From: Fibrobacter sp.
GTDB taxonomy: Bacteria; Fibrobacterota; Fibrobacteria; Fibrobacterales; Fibrobacteraceae
DNA length: 64,000 nucleotides
Assembly (NCBI GenBank): GCA_024398875.1
Contig: JAKSIJ010000003.1
Coordinates: forward strand, 124,001 to 188,000
Reading direction: 5' to 3'
Shown: in pieces, positions 7,166 to 62,234 of the stretch
Layout of the letters: each line of letters begins with the position of its first letter
Numbering within the stretch: position 1 is the first letter of the stretch
The notes under the pieces: model-generated
The model's input: only the letters and a program-made list of their open reading frames with translations
What the model was told of the DNA's origin: nothing
Database searches by the model: none
Program-made: the position numbers and the translations under genes

Positions 7166-8122
7166 TTAGTCCGAGTCCTTGATGCAGCGGACGGAGAAGG
7201 CTGCGCCTTTTTGGCAGTAGCTCAGGGACGCGGTGCCCCAGTCATAACGCAGGGTCATAAAGTTGGGGTAATCGACTTTGTATTGCGACGCACTCCAAAA
7301 ATAGGTCACACTGCCGACATCGTAGAAGCCGCCTCCAATGCCCCCGTCACCTGCTGGCAGCGCGGCAAAACCGACGGCATCAACATTGGTGATGCCGTCT
7401 TTTGCTTTCCAAAGCGTTGTAGCCTTGAGCTTAACACCCGTAGTTGACGAGTTGGACCCGCCCACTGCGATGATTAGGACTCCCCATTCATCGTTGGTCG
7501 GAATGTGCCAACCGTCGGGGCAAATGCCCTGCACATTGCCCCTGAGCAAGCTGCAATAACTTCCATAGACGCACTCGTCCTCGGACATGCCCACGGCTGT
7601 GGACCAAATGTAGAGACGCCCATATGTGGCGCAATTTTCCGTCTTGGGGTCACTTTTGGTCTCTCCGTAGCAGTAACTGCCGCTTGCCGCCTCATAGTTC
7701 AAGTTCTCCGCCATCCACCACTGGTCACCGATTTTCACCGTCTTGTATGTCTGGCCATCGCGTTCATCCACCAACTCGCCATACTCGCAGTTGTCTTCGG
7801 TTTCAGTCTTGCAAGGTGTAGCCAACGCCACGGAACTAGATGATAAAATCGATACTTTTACTGAACTTGAACTCTTGGAGTCAGAAGATGTCTTGGTTTC
7901 TTTTGCCGAACTACTGGACCTATTCGACTCCACTTTACCGTTGCTGGAGATTGCTTCATCCTTATCGTTGGAGCGAGAATCACTGGATTCTTCGCGGCTA
8001 TCGCCACTCAGAATGACGTCATCGCCACCCGCCGACGACGAATCATCGCAGGCGGTCAGGGCGAAACCGAGCACCCCCGCAAGGGCACAGACCATAAACT
8101 TTTTCGCGAATGTATTTTTCAT
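7166..8122 (-). CDS. FISUMP lipoprotein
   Basis: The protein has 318 residues. The lipoprotein signal MKNTFAKKFMVCALAGVLGF ends at C25 (LTAC). Residues about 27-98 are a Ser/Asp/Lys-rich linker, followed by a single FISUMP domain (about 110-318: RDGQTYKTVKIG, WWMAENLNY, GRLYIWSTA, GICPDGWHIPTNDEW, VGFAALPAG, FSVRCIKDSD). The linker contains VILSGDSREES, encoded by a dispersed-repeat-like sequence (7983-8017). The gene is 18 bp from each neighbour, so it is probably co-transcribed. The function of the family is unknown. Confidence 0.92.
   Translation of the reverse strand: MKNTFAKKFMVCALAGVLGFALTACDDSSSAGGDDVILSGDSREESSDSRSNDKDEAISSNGKVESNRSSSSAKETKTSSDSKSSSSVKVSILSSSSVALATPCKTETEDNCEYGELVDERDGQTYKTVKIGDQWWMAENLNYEAASGSYCYGETKSDPKTENCATYGRLYIWSTAVGMSEDECVYGSYCSLLRGNVQGICPDGWHIPTNDEWGVLIIAVGGSNSSTTGVKLKATTLWKAKDGITNVDAVGFAALPAGDGGIGGGFYDVGSVTYFWSASQYKVDYPNFMTLRYDWGTASLSYCQKGAAFSVRCIKDSD
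7983..8017 (-). repeat. Dispersed-repeat-like sequence in frame (encodes VILSGDSREES)
   Basis: On the reverse strand this reads CGTCATTCTGAG, 11 further bases, then GCGAAGAATCCAG. CGTCATTCTGAG...GAAGAATC is a common interspersed bacterial repeat. It sits in frame in the serine/aspartate linker without breaking the gene. Confidence 0.6.
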
Positions 8123-9336: not shown

Positions 9337-10620
9337 CTAATCCTTGAGGCAACGCAAACTTCGACTGATGCCCTTGTTGTTGCTGCCTTGGTATGCATAG
9401 TCGTGATCGAAATAGAAGTACTGGATCCACGCGGAGATGCTATCATCCTCAGAGGCCGTCCACAAGACGGCGTCGTAGTGCTCATTCTTCATACCGCCAC
9501 CGATGCCCTTGAAACCGGCGGGGACCACAGAGAATCCATACCTGTCGATACCGTTACCGCTCTTGTCACCATTATCTTCCCAACCGCTAGTGGATTTTAG
9601 CAACGAACCAGCGGTATTGGAACCTCCGATGTTTTTGTAAAGGCTGCTGTACTCCTCATTCGTAGGCACGTGCCAGCCCTCGGGGCAAATGCCGCGGTGC
9701 GGGCTGTTAGGGGTACAAGTCTTGCCATAGCCGCACTTGGTCTCTGCGTTTACGCTGAACCGGGCTGCACTATCCATCACTGCACTCCAGGTATAAAGGC
9801 GACCATACTTATCGCAGTTGGCGCTGTTTCCGTAGCACCAGCTAGTGGAGTCGGAAGTGTAACCACTATAGCTGTACTTCACACCCACGTAGCGATAGTT
9901 CAAATTCTGCGCCATCCAGGTTTGACAATTTTCGTTGTTGCTGTCACAGATTTCAGTGGTCTTGTAAACCTGGCCGTCACGGGTGTCTAGCATTTCGCCA
10001 TATTTGCCAATGGCAAGCATCTCCTGATTCAAGTATTCGAGTGATGACGTTGCGTCCTTGCAGTCGAGACCCGCAGGGCAATTCGTCTTATAATATCCAG
10101 TAGGCATCACCTTCGCCGCATTGCCACTAGATCCGCTAGATTGCTTCGCTCCTGCGGAGCTCGCAATGACGCAAGAAGAACTTGACGAATGGCCTTTTTT
10201 GCTGTCGGAAGAATAATTGTCTTCATCACTATCGGAAGAGTAATCATCTTCGCTGTCAGAGGAATAATCCTCATCTTCGCTGTCGGAAGAGTAATCCTCG
10301 TCATCGTGGGAGTCGCTGGATTCCGCAAAGTCGCAGTCCATCTTCTCGATGAGAGTCCCGAACACCCAGCCGTCCTCGCCGTCGCACACGGCCTTGTCGT
10401 TGAATTCCACCAGATAGGTGGCGATGCACTTCTGGCTCTCGCCGCAAGGCACATCCGACAGCAGTTCTTCCATCGTCTGCACCGTATCGGGAACGCCCGC
10501 GCGGCCTCCCCCGTTATCGCCGGGTCCACTGCTGGAACCCGAATCATCGCCGCAGGCGTTAAAGGTGAACAGCGCAAAAGCGACCGCGCTGGTGAGTGTG
10601 ATTTTTTTGAATGTGTTCAT
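9337..10620 (-). CDS. FISUMP lipoprotein with acidic Ser-Asp repeats
   Basis: The protein has 427 residues. The lipoprotein signal MNTFKKITLTSAVAFALFTF ends at C23 (NAC). A conserved Cys-containing spacer is shared with the gene at 8141-9262. An acidic repeat region (about 117-143) has several DYSSDSED-like units; its serines are flanked by acids, so metal binding or modification is possible but unproven. The FISUMP domain is at about 215-427 (RDGQVYKTTEI, WMAQNLNY, GICPEGWHVPTNEEY, YGFSVVPAG, SLRCLKD) and has an extra Cys pair (CDSNNENC). The linker contains VIASSAGAKQSS from an in-frame repeat. The fragment at 2633-3064 is a partial copy of this gene. Confidence 0.92.
   Translation of the reverse strand: MNTFKKITLTSAVAFALFTFNACGDDSGSSSGPGDNGGGRAGVPDTVQTMEELLSDVPCGESQKCIATYLVEFNDKAVCDGEDGWVFGTLIEKMDCDFAESSDSHDDEDYSSDSEDEDYSSDSEDDYSSDSDEDNYSSDSKKGHSSSSSCVIASSAGAKQSSGSSGNAAKVMPTGYYKTNCPAGLDCKDATSSLEYLNQEMLAIGKYGEMLDTRDGQVYKTTEICDSNNENCQTWMAQNLNYRYVGVKYSYSGYTSDSTSWCYGNSANCDKYGRLYTWSAVMDSAARFSVNAETKCGYGKTCTPNSPHRGICPEGWHVPTNEEYSSLYKNIGGSNTAGSLLKSTSGWEDNGDKSGNGIDRYGFSVVPAGFKGIGGGMKNEHYDAVLWTASEDDSISAWIQYFYFDHDYAYQGSNNKGISRSLRCLKD
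10136..10171 (-). repeat. REP-like palindromic element in frame (encodes VIASSAGAKQS)
   Basis: On the reverse strand the element begins CGTCATTGCGAG and ends GAAGCAATCTAG. Paired arms are GCTCC (10148-10152) with GGAGC (10156-10160) and TTGC (10141-10144) with GCAA (10163-10166). Non-coding relatives lie at 24302-24336 and 34573-34603 in this window. Confidence 0.75.
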
Positions 10621-10759: not shown

Positions 10760-11707
10760 TTAGGCTTTGATTTTACTATTCATTACGCAACGGACGGAGA
10801 AGGCGTAGTACTTGTAGTTGTGGTACATGTCGCCTTTTTCGAGGTCCCAGACCAAGCCCAGATAGTAGGCTTCGTAACTATCATACTCGCTAGCAGACCA
10901 GAATCTAGCATGGACGCCATCGTGGTAGAAAAAGATGTCTCCCCTAAAGCCAGCGGGGAGCGCAGAGAAGCCATAGGCATCTGTACCATTACGCTTATAC
11001 CACCCGCTACCGGACTTGAGTATGTCGCCTGCGATACTGGAACCCCCCACAGTTTCTACTAGGGTGTTGAATTCAGCTTTGGTAGGCAGGTGCCAGTCAG
11101 AGGGGCAAATGCCCTGGATTGGGGTCGCCGGTTTCAAGGTGGCGTCACATTCTTTACCGTAATCGCAGTCGGCATTATTCCTGGCCACAACCCAAGTGTA
11201 AAGGCGACCGGTCACGCCACAGTTCTTGTCAACATTGTTGTAGCAGCCACTCCATGCATAGCTCGTATTAAACACATTACCCGGATCGTAATTTAGGTTT
11301 TCAGCCATCCATACCTGATCTCCGATCTTTACGGTCTTGTAGGTTTTTCCATCGCGTTTGTCCGTCATGGTGCCGTAGGTAATCTCAGGATTCAAACGGT
11401 CTTCCTTGGGAACATCGAAAGACCAAAATGAGACACTAGACGAAGAACTTTTTTCACTGCTAGAGGAAGAATACTCTGCATCAACATCAGATGAGGAAGA
11501 CCTGTCCACATCATCGAGAGAACTCGAAGAGTTCGCGATAATCGAAGAAAAACTGCTAGATTCCGGGTCGATGCCCGAAATGACAGAAGAGGATGATTCG
11601 TTTTCGCCAGATGCGCTGGTGGAGTTGGAGTCGTCGCCGCAGGCGTTAAAGGCGAACAGCGCAAAAGCGACGACACTCACCAAACCAATTTTCTTAAACA
11701 TTTTCAT
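10760..11707 (-). CDS. FISUMP lipoprotein, first gene of the leftward array
   Basis: The protein has 315 residues. The lipoprotein signal MKMFKKIGLVSVVAFALFAF ends at C23 (NAC). The linker (about 25-95) is almost pure Ser/Glu/Asp. The FISUMP domain follows at about 105-315 (RDGKTYKTVKIG, VWMAENLNYDPG, GRLYTWVVA, GICPSDWHLPTKAEF, YGFSALPAG, FWSASEYDSY, FSVRCVMNSK). The last residues (SKIKA) differ from the usual VKD ending. The linker includes VISGIDPESS from a repeat-like sequence at 11556-11586. The gene is divergent from the small lipoprotein at 11958, and 139 bp separate it from the next array gene. Confidence 0.92.
   Translation of the reverse strand: MKMFKKIGLVSVVAFALFAFNACGDDSNSTSASGENESSSSVISGIDPESSSFSSIIANSSSSLDDVDRSSSSDVDAEYSSSSSEKSSSSSVSFWSFDVPKEDRLNPEITYGTMTDKRDGKTYKTVKIGDQVWMAENLNYDPGNVFNTSYAWSGCYNNVDKNCGVTGRLYTWVVARNNADCDYGKECDATLKPATPIQGICPSDWHLPTKAEFNTLVETVGGSSIAGDILKSGSGWYKRNGTDAYGFSALPAGFRGDIFFYHDGVHARFWSASEYDSYEAYYLGLVWDLEKGDMYHNYKYYAFSVRCVMNSKIKA
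11556..11586 (-). repeat. Palindromic repeat-like sequence in frame (encodes VISGIDPESS)
   Basis: The reverse strand reads CTGTCATTTCGGGC, five bases, then CCCGGAATCTAG. The TCATTnCGGG...CCCGGAATC pattern is a common dispersed palindrome. It is in frame in the serine linker. Confidence 0.55.
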
Positions 11708-24217: not shown

Positions 24218-24561
24218 TGCAGAATGCAGAATGATGAATGCTGAATGCGGAATGCTGAATTATGAAGTATGAATTATGAAGTATGAGATATTTCAGAGAA
24301 ACGTCATCGCGAGCCCCTTAGGGCGTGGCGAGCCAAGAATGATGAATGATGAATGCGGAATGCAGAATGCGGAATGCAGAATGATGAATTATGAAGTATG
24401 AGATATTTCAAAGGAAGAACTCTCTCGAAATAATTTTGCATTATGAATTTTGTCGAGGCGAGCGAAACGACCGAGCTTGCTCGGGCACTTCCGAGCCGAA
24501 GTCAAAATGAGTGCAAAGCATTAATTATTGATTATGAATTTTAAATTGTAAATTGTGAATT
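24218..24561. repeat. Period-7 repeat region with an embedded REP-like element
   Basis: 24218-24290 and 24337-24410 are near-perfect runs of 7-nt units (GAATGCA, GAATGAT, GAATTAT, GAAGTAT). Between them 24302-24336 is a REP-like palindrome (CGTCATCGCGAGCC...GGCGTGGCGAGCC). 24450-24525 adds a second palindromic unit around CCGAG CTTG CTCGG. The tract runs up to the start codon of the next gene, whose ATG lies inside a unit. Confidence 0.88.
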
Positions 24562-34458: not shown

Positions 34459-34467
34459 TTATTAATT

Positions 34468-34572
34468 ATGAAGTATGAAGTACGAAGTATGAAGTATGAA
34501 TTATGAAGTATGAATTACGAAGTACGAAGTATGAAGTATGAGGTATGAATTACGAAGTATGAAGTATGAAAA
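34468..34572. repeat. Period-7 tract, 14 uninterrupted units
   Basis: From 34468 to 34565 there are 14 consecutive 7-nt units, ATGAAGT, ACGAAGT or ATGAATT, with changes only at positions 2, 4, 5 or 6 of the unit. It directly abuts a REP-like element at 34573. Confidence 0.95.
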
Positions 34573-34603
34573 CGTCATTGCGAGGCCGAAGGCCGTGGCA
34601 ATC
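34573..34603. repeat. REP-like palindrome (VIAS type), non-coding copy
   Basis: CGTCATTGCGA, GGCC GAA GGCC, then GTGGCAATC. GGCC arms form a short hairpin and TTGC/GCAA an outer pair. It is the same family as the in-gene copy at 10136-10171. Confidence 0.8.
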
Positions 34604-60837: not shown

Positions 60838-62193
60838 ATGAGCATCCAAATTCCTCAGTTGCCCAAGGGCACTCGTGATTTTTATCCGGAAGCAGAACGC
60901 ATCCAGAACTACATTTTCGACACATGGCGCAAAGTCGCCGAAAGTTTCGCCTACGAAGAATACGAAGGCCCCATGTTTGAGCATCTGGAGCTCTATACCG
61001 GAAAATCCGGCGATGAAATCGTAAGTCAGCTGTATAATTTTGTGGACAAGGGCGACCGCGCCATCGCGCTCCGGCCCGAAATGACGCCGACTCTCGCCCG
61101 CCTCGTGATTCAGAAGGCCCGCGAACTGAAGAAGCCCTTCAAGTGGTTCAGCATGCCGCGCCTGTTCCGCTACGAAAAGGCCCAGAAGGGCCGCCTCCGC
61201 GAATTCTTCCAGCTGAACATGGACATCATCGGCACCGAAAGCATCTACGCCGAAGCGGATTTGATGGCAGCCATCGCTACCATGCTCCGCAAATTCGGCC
61301 TCAAAGACGGCGAATTCGCGATTGGCGTTTCCAGCCGCAAGCTCCTCGCCACCTACCTTGAAGAAATAGGAGCCCCGAACCCGGCCCTCGTTTACCCGGT
61401 TCTGGACCGCCGCCTGAAAATCGGGCCGGAAGCCTTTGCAAAGGCCCTCACCGACGCAGGCCTCAGCGACGAACAGATCCAGAAGTTGGATGCCTTCATG
61501 AGCTGCAAGAGCATTGAAGAGGTCAAGGCTGCAGTGAAGAGCGAAAATGCAAGCGCCGCCCTAGATGAAATCGTGGAACTTTTCGCCACCCTCCAGAGTG
61601 CAGGTTTTGGCGAATGCGTGAACCTGGACCTCTCCATCGTCCGTGGTCTCGCCTACTACACAGGCATCGTTTTTGAAGTGTTCGACAAGGGCAAATCCAT
61701 GCGTGCCATCGCAGGTGGTGGACGTTACGACAGCCTCACCGAAAAACTGGGTGGCGACCGCATCCCGGGCGTTGGCTTTGGCATGGGCGACGTGGTTCTC
61801 GCAGACCTCCTCCGCGAACACAACCTGCTCCCAAGCCCCAAGCAGAGCGTAGACTTCTACATCGCAAGTTTCACAAACGACATGAAGAAGGTTTTTGAAA
61901 CAGCCCAGATGTTCCGCGCAAGTTCCTCTACAGCGGAAAATGGCTCAAACTTCACCGTGTCTCACCCCCTCGCCCCTATGAAGATGGGCAAGCAATTGGA
62001 CCAGGCCAACTACCAGGGTGCAAAAATCGTCGTCTATGTGGATGGCAACAAGGCTCAGGCAGGCGAATTCGAGTTCAAGGATCTCCGCGATGGCACCATG
62101 CACGTGGGTAATGCAGACGCAATCATAAAGCAACTCATAATCAATTCACAATTCACAATTCAAAATTCAAAATTAATATCTCATACTTCATAA
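60838..62193 (+). CDS. hisS: Histidyl-tRNA synthetase with repeat-encoded C-terminal tail
   Basis: The 451-residue protein has class II motifs: LPKGTRDFYPEAERIQNYI in part, ALRPEMTPTLARLV, MPRLFRYEKAQKGRLREFFQLNMDIIG in pieces, the HisRS motif LVRG-like IVRGLAYYTGIVFEVFD in part, and AIAGGGRYDSL. It charges tRNA-His. The anticodon-binding domain ends near NADAIIKQL. The last 17 codons (INSQFTIQNSKLISHTS) are encoded by a period-7 tract that has replaced the original stop. The enzyme is essential, so the tail must be tolerated. Confidence 0.95.
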   Translation: MSIQIPQLPKGTRDFYPEAERIQNYIFDTWRKVAESFAYEEYEGPMFEHLELYTGKSGDEIVSQLYNFVDKGDRAIALRPEMTPTLARLVIQKARELKKPFKWFSMPRLFRYEKAQKGRLREFFQLNMDIIGTESIYAEADLMAAIATMLRKFGLKDGEFAIGVSSRKLLATYLEEIGAPNPALVYPVLDRRLKIGPEAFAKALTDAGLSDEQIQKLDAFMSCKSIEEVKAAVKSENASAALDEIVELFATLQSAGFGECVNLDLSIVRGLAYYTGIVFEVFDKGKSMRAIAGGGRYDSLTEKLGGDRIPGVGFGMGDVVLADLLREHNLLPSPKQSVDFYIASFTNDMKKVFETAQMFRASSSTAENGSNFTVSHPLAPMKMGKQLDQANYQGAKIVVYVDGNKAQAGEFEFKDLRDGTMHVGNADAIIKQLIINSQFTIQNSKLISHTS

Positions 62194-62234
62194 CTCATAA
62201 TTCATAATTCAGCATTCTGCATTCATAATTTATA
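62140..62234. repeat. Period-7 tract over the hisS 3' end
   Basis: Units AATTCAC, AATTCAA, AATTAAT, ACTTCAT, AATTCAT, AATTCAG, CATTCTG run from inside hisS to the start of the next gene. The hisS stop (62191-62193) is within the tract. Confidence 0.92.

Follow-up and report, generated by a model that had tools for sequence, protein, structure and literature searches.

The window analysed here, a 64,000-nucleotide stretch of a Fibrobacter sp. contig (JAKSIJ010000003.1, positions 124,001 to 188,000), carries neighbouring FISUMP genes whose linkers contain short palindromes (Table 1). The focal gene encodes a 427-aa protein that matches TIGR02145 at 153.4 bits (cut-off 41.65; E 9.4e-45) and also PF09603. 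Its palindrome starts at codon 151 in frame 0 and is read as a peptide flanked by runs of Ser. The first-pass annotation had described 10136-10171 as a REP-like palindrome lying in frame in this FISUMP linker (VIASSAGAKQS), which we confirmed; that span adds a tag base and a TAG tail to the core element. A 27-bp tandem repeat (10201-10306) represents a second source of linker length variation in the same gene.

Two sister elements, absent from that annotation, lie in the neighbouring genes. The motif GTCATTCTGAG in gene 7166..8122 is read as VILSGDSREES, a peptide that several other Fibrobacter genomes also have at the equivalent position, and GTCATTTCGGG in gene 10760..11707 is read as VISGIDPES. 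Elsewhere in the same genome, GTCATTCCGGG is read as VIPGSNPES in the linker of L107.

Table 1. FISUMP linker elements and intergenic palindromes of the window (window coordinates)
Feature	Position	Strand	Reading, context or basis
FISUMP lipoprotein-like gene with the focal element in its Ser-rich linker	9337..10620	-	ORF list; TIGR02145, PF09603
CGTC-REP core GTCATTGCGAGCTCCGCAGGAGCGAAGCAATC	10139..10170	- (5'->3')	Read VIASSAGAKQS, last codon completed by the T of the tail
REP tail TAG	10136..10138	-	After ATC reads ..A-TCT-AGC (Ser-Ser); tail consensus compared with PMC3733652
Base C of the tag CGTC, on the 5' side of the core	10171..10171	-	Sequence; PMC3733652
27-bp tandem repeat	10201..10306	.	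Codes for acidic/Ser linker directly upstream of the REP in gene 9337..10620
Sister REP GTCATTCTGAGTGGCGATAGCCGCGAAGAATC	7986..8017	-	Read VILSGDSREES; linker of FISUMP gene 7166..8122
Sister REP GTCATTTCGGGCATCGACCCGGAATC	11559..11584	-	Read VISGIDPES; linker of FISUMP gene 10760..11707
Intergenic copy GTCATCGCGAGCCCCTTAGGGCGTGGCGAGCC	24303..24334 (end approximate)	+	Beside a 7-bp-periodic repeat array
Intergenic copy GTCATTGCGAGGCCGAAGGCCGTGGCAATC	34574..34603	+	Beside the same kind of array

Copies of the palindrome in the genome and the genus

Copies in the 2.78-Mb genome were gathered by pattern search and inspection of the matched regions. The head GTCATYGCGAG is matched 68 times, 34 per strand, against 0 matches for the reversed control pattern. 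In the full palindromes, most of which fall outside long ORFs, the inner stem and loop vary, while the head GTCATTGCGAG is constant, as is the end, GCAATC with CTA or CCA after it. Across the genus, a looser pattern (GTCATY..RATCYAGYWS) is matched in 59/61 Fibrobacter genomes and almost never in the control; no GCGAG-type match appeared in the genomes sampled from the same order and class.

The CGTC-REP superfamily is characterized by a CGTC tag, a stem starting with AT, a tail near CCA, dispersal and occasional intragenic copies (Di Nocera, De Gregorio and Rocco 2013; PMC3733652). An unpaired tag of this type (CGTC, or TGTC/CCTC) is found in the focal copy as CGTCATTGCG at 10171-10162 on the minus strand, and intergenic copies mostly read aacGTCATT. 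The short tail, mostly CCA in the superfamily, follows AAT as CTA(G) or CCA(G) in almost every copy, and the copies are many and mainly intergenic. Superfamily stems have 8-9 bp, starting with A-T, and a loop of 4-5 nt; in CCGGG-type linker elements the 8-bp stem is unbroken. Folded as single-stranded DNA, the focal copy forms an outer 5-bp stem (ATTGC/GCAAT), a 2x3 internal loop, an inner 5-bp stem and a 3-nt loop. On its tag, AT-starting stem, tail and dispersal we assign the focal segment, read in frame, to the CGTC-tagged REP superfamily. With its CGTC tag it falls outside the GTAG REP/RAYT group, defined by a GTAG tag and an associated Y1 transposase. CGTC REPs have been listed in five phyla; Fibrobacterota is not among them and Fibrobacter is unmentioned (PMC3733652).

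The folding energy of the focal copy (-7.1 kcal/mol; dinucleotide-shuffle z -1.84, with 12/200 shuffles folding as well) is weak evidence taken alone, and the case is carried by copy number and by a synonymous-recoding test. Only 0.85% of the synonymous recodings of VIASSAGAKQS fold as well as the focal element, and across 10 linker elements including the window's three this fraction is 0.25-2.6% (P 0.0025-0.026), the recodings being exceeded in 10/10 cases. As so few recodings fold as well, the palindrome is a property of the DNA.

Recurrence in FISUMP linkers and the origin of the focal copy

In the same genome, five FISUMP genes together hold at least 10 complete or almost complete GCGAG-type copies (three in L033, two in L036, three in L040, and those of L045 and the window gene), all in sense orientation and read V-I-A-S..S. 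Uniform placement would put 1.3 copies in FISUMP ORFs, giving P(>=10) = 1.3e-6 for a total of about 54 kb from the 40 ORFs collected (the genome has 65 FISUMP domain hits). As L033, L036 and L040 contain tandem linker units, counting five independent genes instead of copies is fairer, and gives P of about 0.01 (Poisson). REP-containing tandem units of 111, 93 and 153 nt are present in L040 and L033; many linker copies are thus related by duplication, and events are fewer than copies. One FISUMP domain hit (G000:C23:17180-17722) has an internal TAG stop and is likely a decayed paralogue.

Linkers across the genus, surveyed in the regions around matches to the looser pattern, contain several other subfamilies, read as VIPGSDPESS (26 nt), RHSGLDPESS (25 nt), VILSGSEESS (26), VILSSSSEGS (29), SSWSEAIGSS (27 or 33) and VTLSEVEGSS (26). 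The first-pass proposal that dispersed repeats supply linker sequence to surface lipoproteins is therefore supported on a larger scale than it envisaged, with five genes, sister subfamilies and a genus-wide distribution. Separately, at the start of lipoprotein signal peptides, a GTCATTGCGACCCTGAACTTG..GGAAGCAATC palindrome is read as VIATLNLFQGKQSL (L090, L094, L095, L096, L098), and other REPs adjoin N-terminal hydrophobic stretches in L222 and L126.

The focal copy had been matched to non-coding copies at 24302-24336 and 34573-34603. Both are real copies of the element, but they are distant relatives (alignment scores of 10 and 16, against 28 for FISUMP linkers), and a derivation of the focal copy from them is not supported. 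Both are flanked by arrays of a 7-bp-periodic repeat, GAATTATGAAGTATGA and its relatives (24250-24405 and 34460-34570, with another array at 62181-62210; 20 matches against 0.04 expected). Similar repeats appear translated elsewhere, as NAECRMQNAEL and HNSEFTILFF in L053 and as NSQFTIQNSKLN in L020.

The nearest copies in the same genome lie in other FISUMP linkers, at 30/32 identities. Together with the tandem duplication of REP-containing units and a nearly identical linker in G050 with, in addition, a copy truncated at its 5' end, this could mean that all VIAS..AKQS copies arose by duplication or conversion from one ancient REP-bearing FISUMP linker, with no later insertion from intergenic DNA. 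We regard this account as possible but doubtful: the linkers of neighbouring genes hold different subfamilies (GCGAG, CTGAG, CCGGG, TCGGG and CTGGAG), unrelated genes, among them those for TruB and GlutR, contain REPs too, and the exact 32-mer is found, at 32/32 identities, between convergent genes in another Fibrobacter species (L312 in G032). This intergenic copy also led us to reject the idea that CTCC/GGAG stems mark a coding-only lineage. The focal copy may have come straight from an intergenic REP or by transfer from a different linker, and we infer that insertion, rather than gene conversion, brought it to this site.

The coding copy had been seen as a likely insertion that kept the frame. 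Its REP origin is supported by the identical intergenic copy in G032; a clean and recent insertion is not supported. The sites in L085 (Fibrobacter sp. UBA1765, the nearest orthologue) and in L086 and L098 (both RGIG5144) are in frame and lack the head, as expected of empty sites, but L086 and L098 hold REP-like sequence. When the sites were locally aligned and compared with synonymous recodings, these two gave P values of 0.0000 (of 2000) and 0.0005 against the L045 variant; L085 was not significant (P 0.07-0.23). We therefore withdrew all three as empty sites, L085 being ambiguous and the other two probably being degraded REPs by their residual similarity. If so, the insertion is older than these species or the site has been hit more than once, and insertion in the focal gene was probably old or recurrent.

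Reading frame in linkers and in other genes

Linker elements of the genus differ in length modulo 3 and their 5' frame shifts accordingly, while the 3' end is nearly always read RA-TCY-AGY, giving Ser-Ser. The tail allows three readings: TCC or TCT followed by AG, which yields Ser; ATC-CAG or ATC-TAG, the latter a stop; and AAT-CCA or AAT-CTA. The Ser phase prevails 48:5 among distinct linker elements, against 1:7 for REPs in non-FISUMP genes, a comparison set of eight elements of the same genome entered by hand (Fisher 1.3e-5). As the pattern GTCATY..RATCYAGYWS itself favours Ser tails, we made a second count, restricted to FISUMP genes that protein homology or family search alone had brought in. 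The Ser phase again prevailed, 11:4 against 1:7 (P 0.009), in a scan whose stem rule leaves out most VIASS..AKQS types, which without exception are in Ser phase. The frame of a REP thus depends on its destination, with the Ser phase in Ser linkers and mostly another phase in housekeeping genes and enzyme loops. Purifying selection on the peptide may set the phase in linkers.

This rule has exceptions (RHCEDCKDEAIS, VIPASSGNLP, SSSAPTEDPS and antisense copies read DPISSSSFQDD). A stricter version, in which all linker REPs share one frame, was rejected on frame-1, frame-2 and antisense examples, the common 3' phase being the better rule. Antisense REPs occur in the Ser linkers of L180 and L239, where they are read as DPISSSNFQGD and DPISSSSFQDD and the loop contributes Ser codons.

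Outside FISUMP genes, in-frame REPs are found in Pfam-supported genes for TruB, glutamyl-tRNA reductase (GlutR), a TP_methylase/HEM4 fusion, an RlmL-like methyltransferase, an EF-G-like GTPase and a metallophosphoesterase (Metallophos). In the EF-G-like GTPase (L294-L304; L048 in the same genome), one variable loop carries different REPs in differing frames or strands in several species; in other species the loop contained no full REP. The TruB-like gene (L035, 378..1370, minus strand) has a partial and a full REP in frame (HCEECEAQEKRHCEECEARRGN); REPs are likewise noted to interrupt truB in Rickettsia, Stenotrophomonas and other bacteria (PMC3733652).

Retention of the hairpin for its own structure, as an aid to mRNA stability, in translational pausing or as a recombination hot spot that diversifies linkers, would fit inner stems that vary among linker copies yet stay paired (CTCC/GGAG, GTTCC/GGAAC, GCAG/CTGC), as well as the association of the elements with tandem unit duplication. 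We nevertheless consider such a domesticated DNA or RNA function unlikely: intergenic REPs show an equal range of stems, so that paired variants may be inherited rather than maintained; the L086 and L098 orthologues lack the outer stem and the gene is intact; and an Rfam search of the element gave no match. That the elements are inserted by a REP-associated Y1 transposase (RAYT) with continuing activity in Fibrobacter is less probable again. While Y1_Tnp genes are present in 21/61 genomes of the genus, the other 40/61, nearly all of which carry REPs, have no Y1_Tnp match, including the REP-rich and near-complete G044 and G059. The match in the genome studied here is a short IS200-like fragment, and CGTC REPs are reported without a dedicated transposase (PMC3733652). 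Finally, that Ser-rich peptides such as VIASS..AKQS were selected as peptides, the palindrome being incidental, is very improbable even though Ser-rich linkers are of low complexity and the peptide is partly common to orthologues with degraded DNA, since synonymous recoding rarely yields a palindrome, the same 32-mer lies outside genes and the reversed control lacks head copies altogether.

REPs as linker sequence and their relation to known systems

We propose that several CGTC-REP subfamilies enter Fibrobacter coding sequence, by landing there or by being copied in, and that most surviving copies would sit in loops and linkers. In FISUMP linkers rich in Ser, and in those of some other Ser-rich proteins, survivors would mostly be those whose RATCCAG or RATCTAG tail is read RA-TCY-AGY, a reading that would give Ser-Ser and run smoothly into the next Ser codons. 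Tandem duplication and exchange among paralogues would then multiply REPs together with their flanking Ser/Glu codons, and linker REPs would decay over time. We hold this explanation as a whole, from in-frame entry of CGTC-REPs to survival in Ser phase and later duplication, exchange and decay, to be likely. A bolder version, which we offer tentatively, is that REPs act as a renewable parts kit: repeated entry into FISUMP linkers, selection for Ser phase and hairpin-promoted duplication and exchange among dozens of paralogues would turn a parasitic palindrome into length diversity of surface proteins.

A search of open-access papers found no report of REP-derived FISUMP linkers. Intragenic REPs are already known; what is new is the phylum, their concentration in one family of predicted surface proteins and the destination-dependent frame. 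Mobile palindromes that are normally intergenic thus appear to be a recurrent source of new linker sequence in these gut bacteria. While intragenic REPs have so far been read as tolerated accidents in unrelated genes, their recurrence in one protein class makes Fibrobacter linkers a system in which one can test whether selection filters mobile non-coding DNA into usable protein sequence. This also carries a warning for annotation: in these proteins VIASSAGAKQS, VILSGDSREES and RHSGLDPESS are translations of REPs and are unfit as evidence of homology.

With regard to known systems, the window gene and all listed FISUMP linker hosts match the family (TIGR02145/PF09603) or contain its WMAxN motif. 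What defines the family is its C-terminal domain, and REP-derived linkers lie outside that definition. Like the GTAG-tagged REP/RAYT system, the Fibrobacter elements are short dispersed palindromes with an unpaired tag that are sometimes intragenic; unlike it, they carry CGTC rather than GTAG and we saw no RAYT association. They share with the CGTC-REP superfamily the CGTC/TGTC tag, the AT-starting stem, the short loop, a tail of approximately CCA, tens of dispersed copies of which some lie in ORFs, and the lack of a dedicated transposase. They differ in the internal loop and longer hairpin of GCGAG-type copies, and neither a concentration in one surface family nor a Ser-phase rule has been described for that superfamily. 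The closest parallel in coding sequence is with Rickettsia RPE-4 and RPE-6, themselves members of the superfamily (CGTC-4 and CGTC-1 in R. conorii; PMC3733652) and likewise short palindromes in frame in genes for functional proteins. Whereas the Rickettsia hosts are unrelated proteins, Fibrobacter has many copies in the linkers of paralogous FISUMP proteins, with the frame adapted to Ser.
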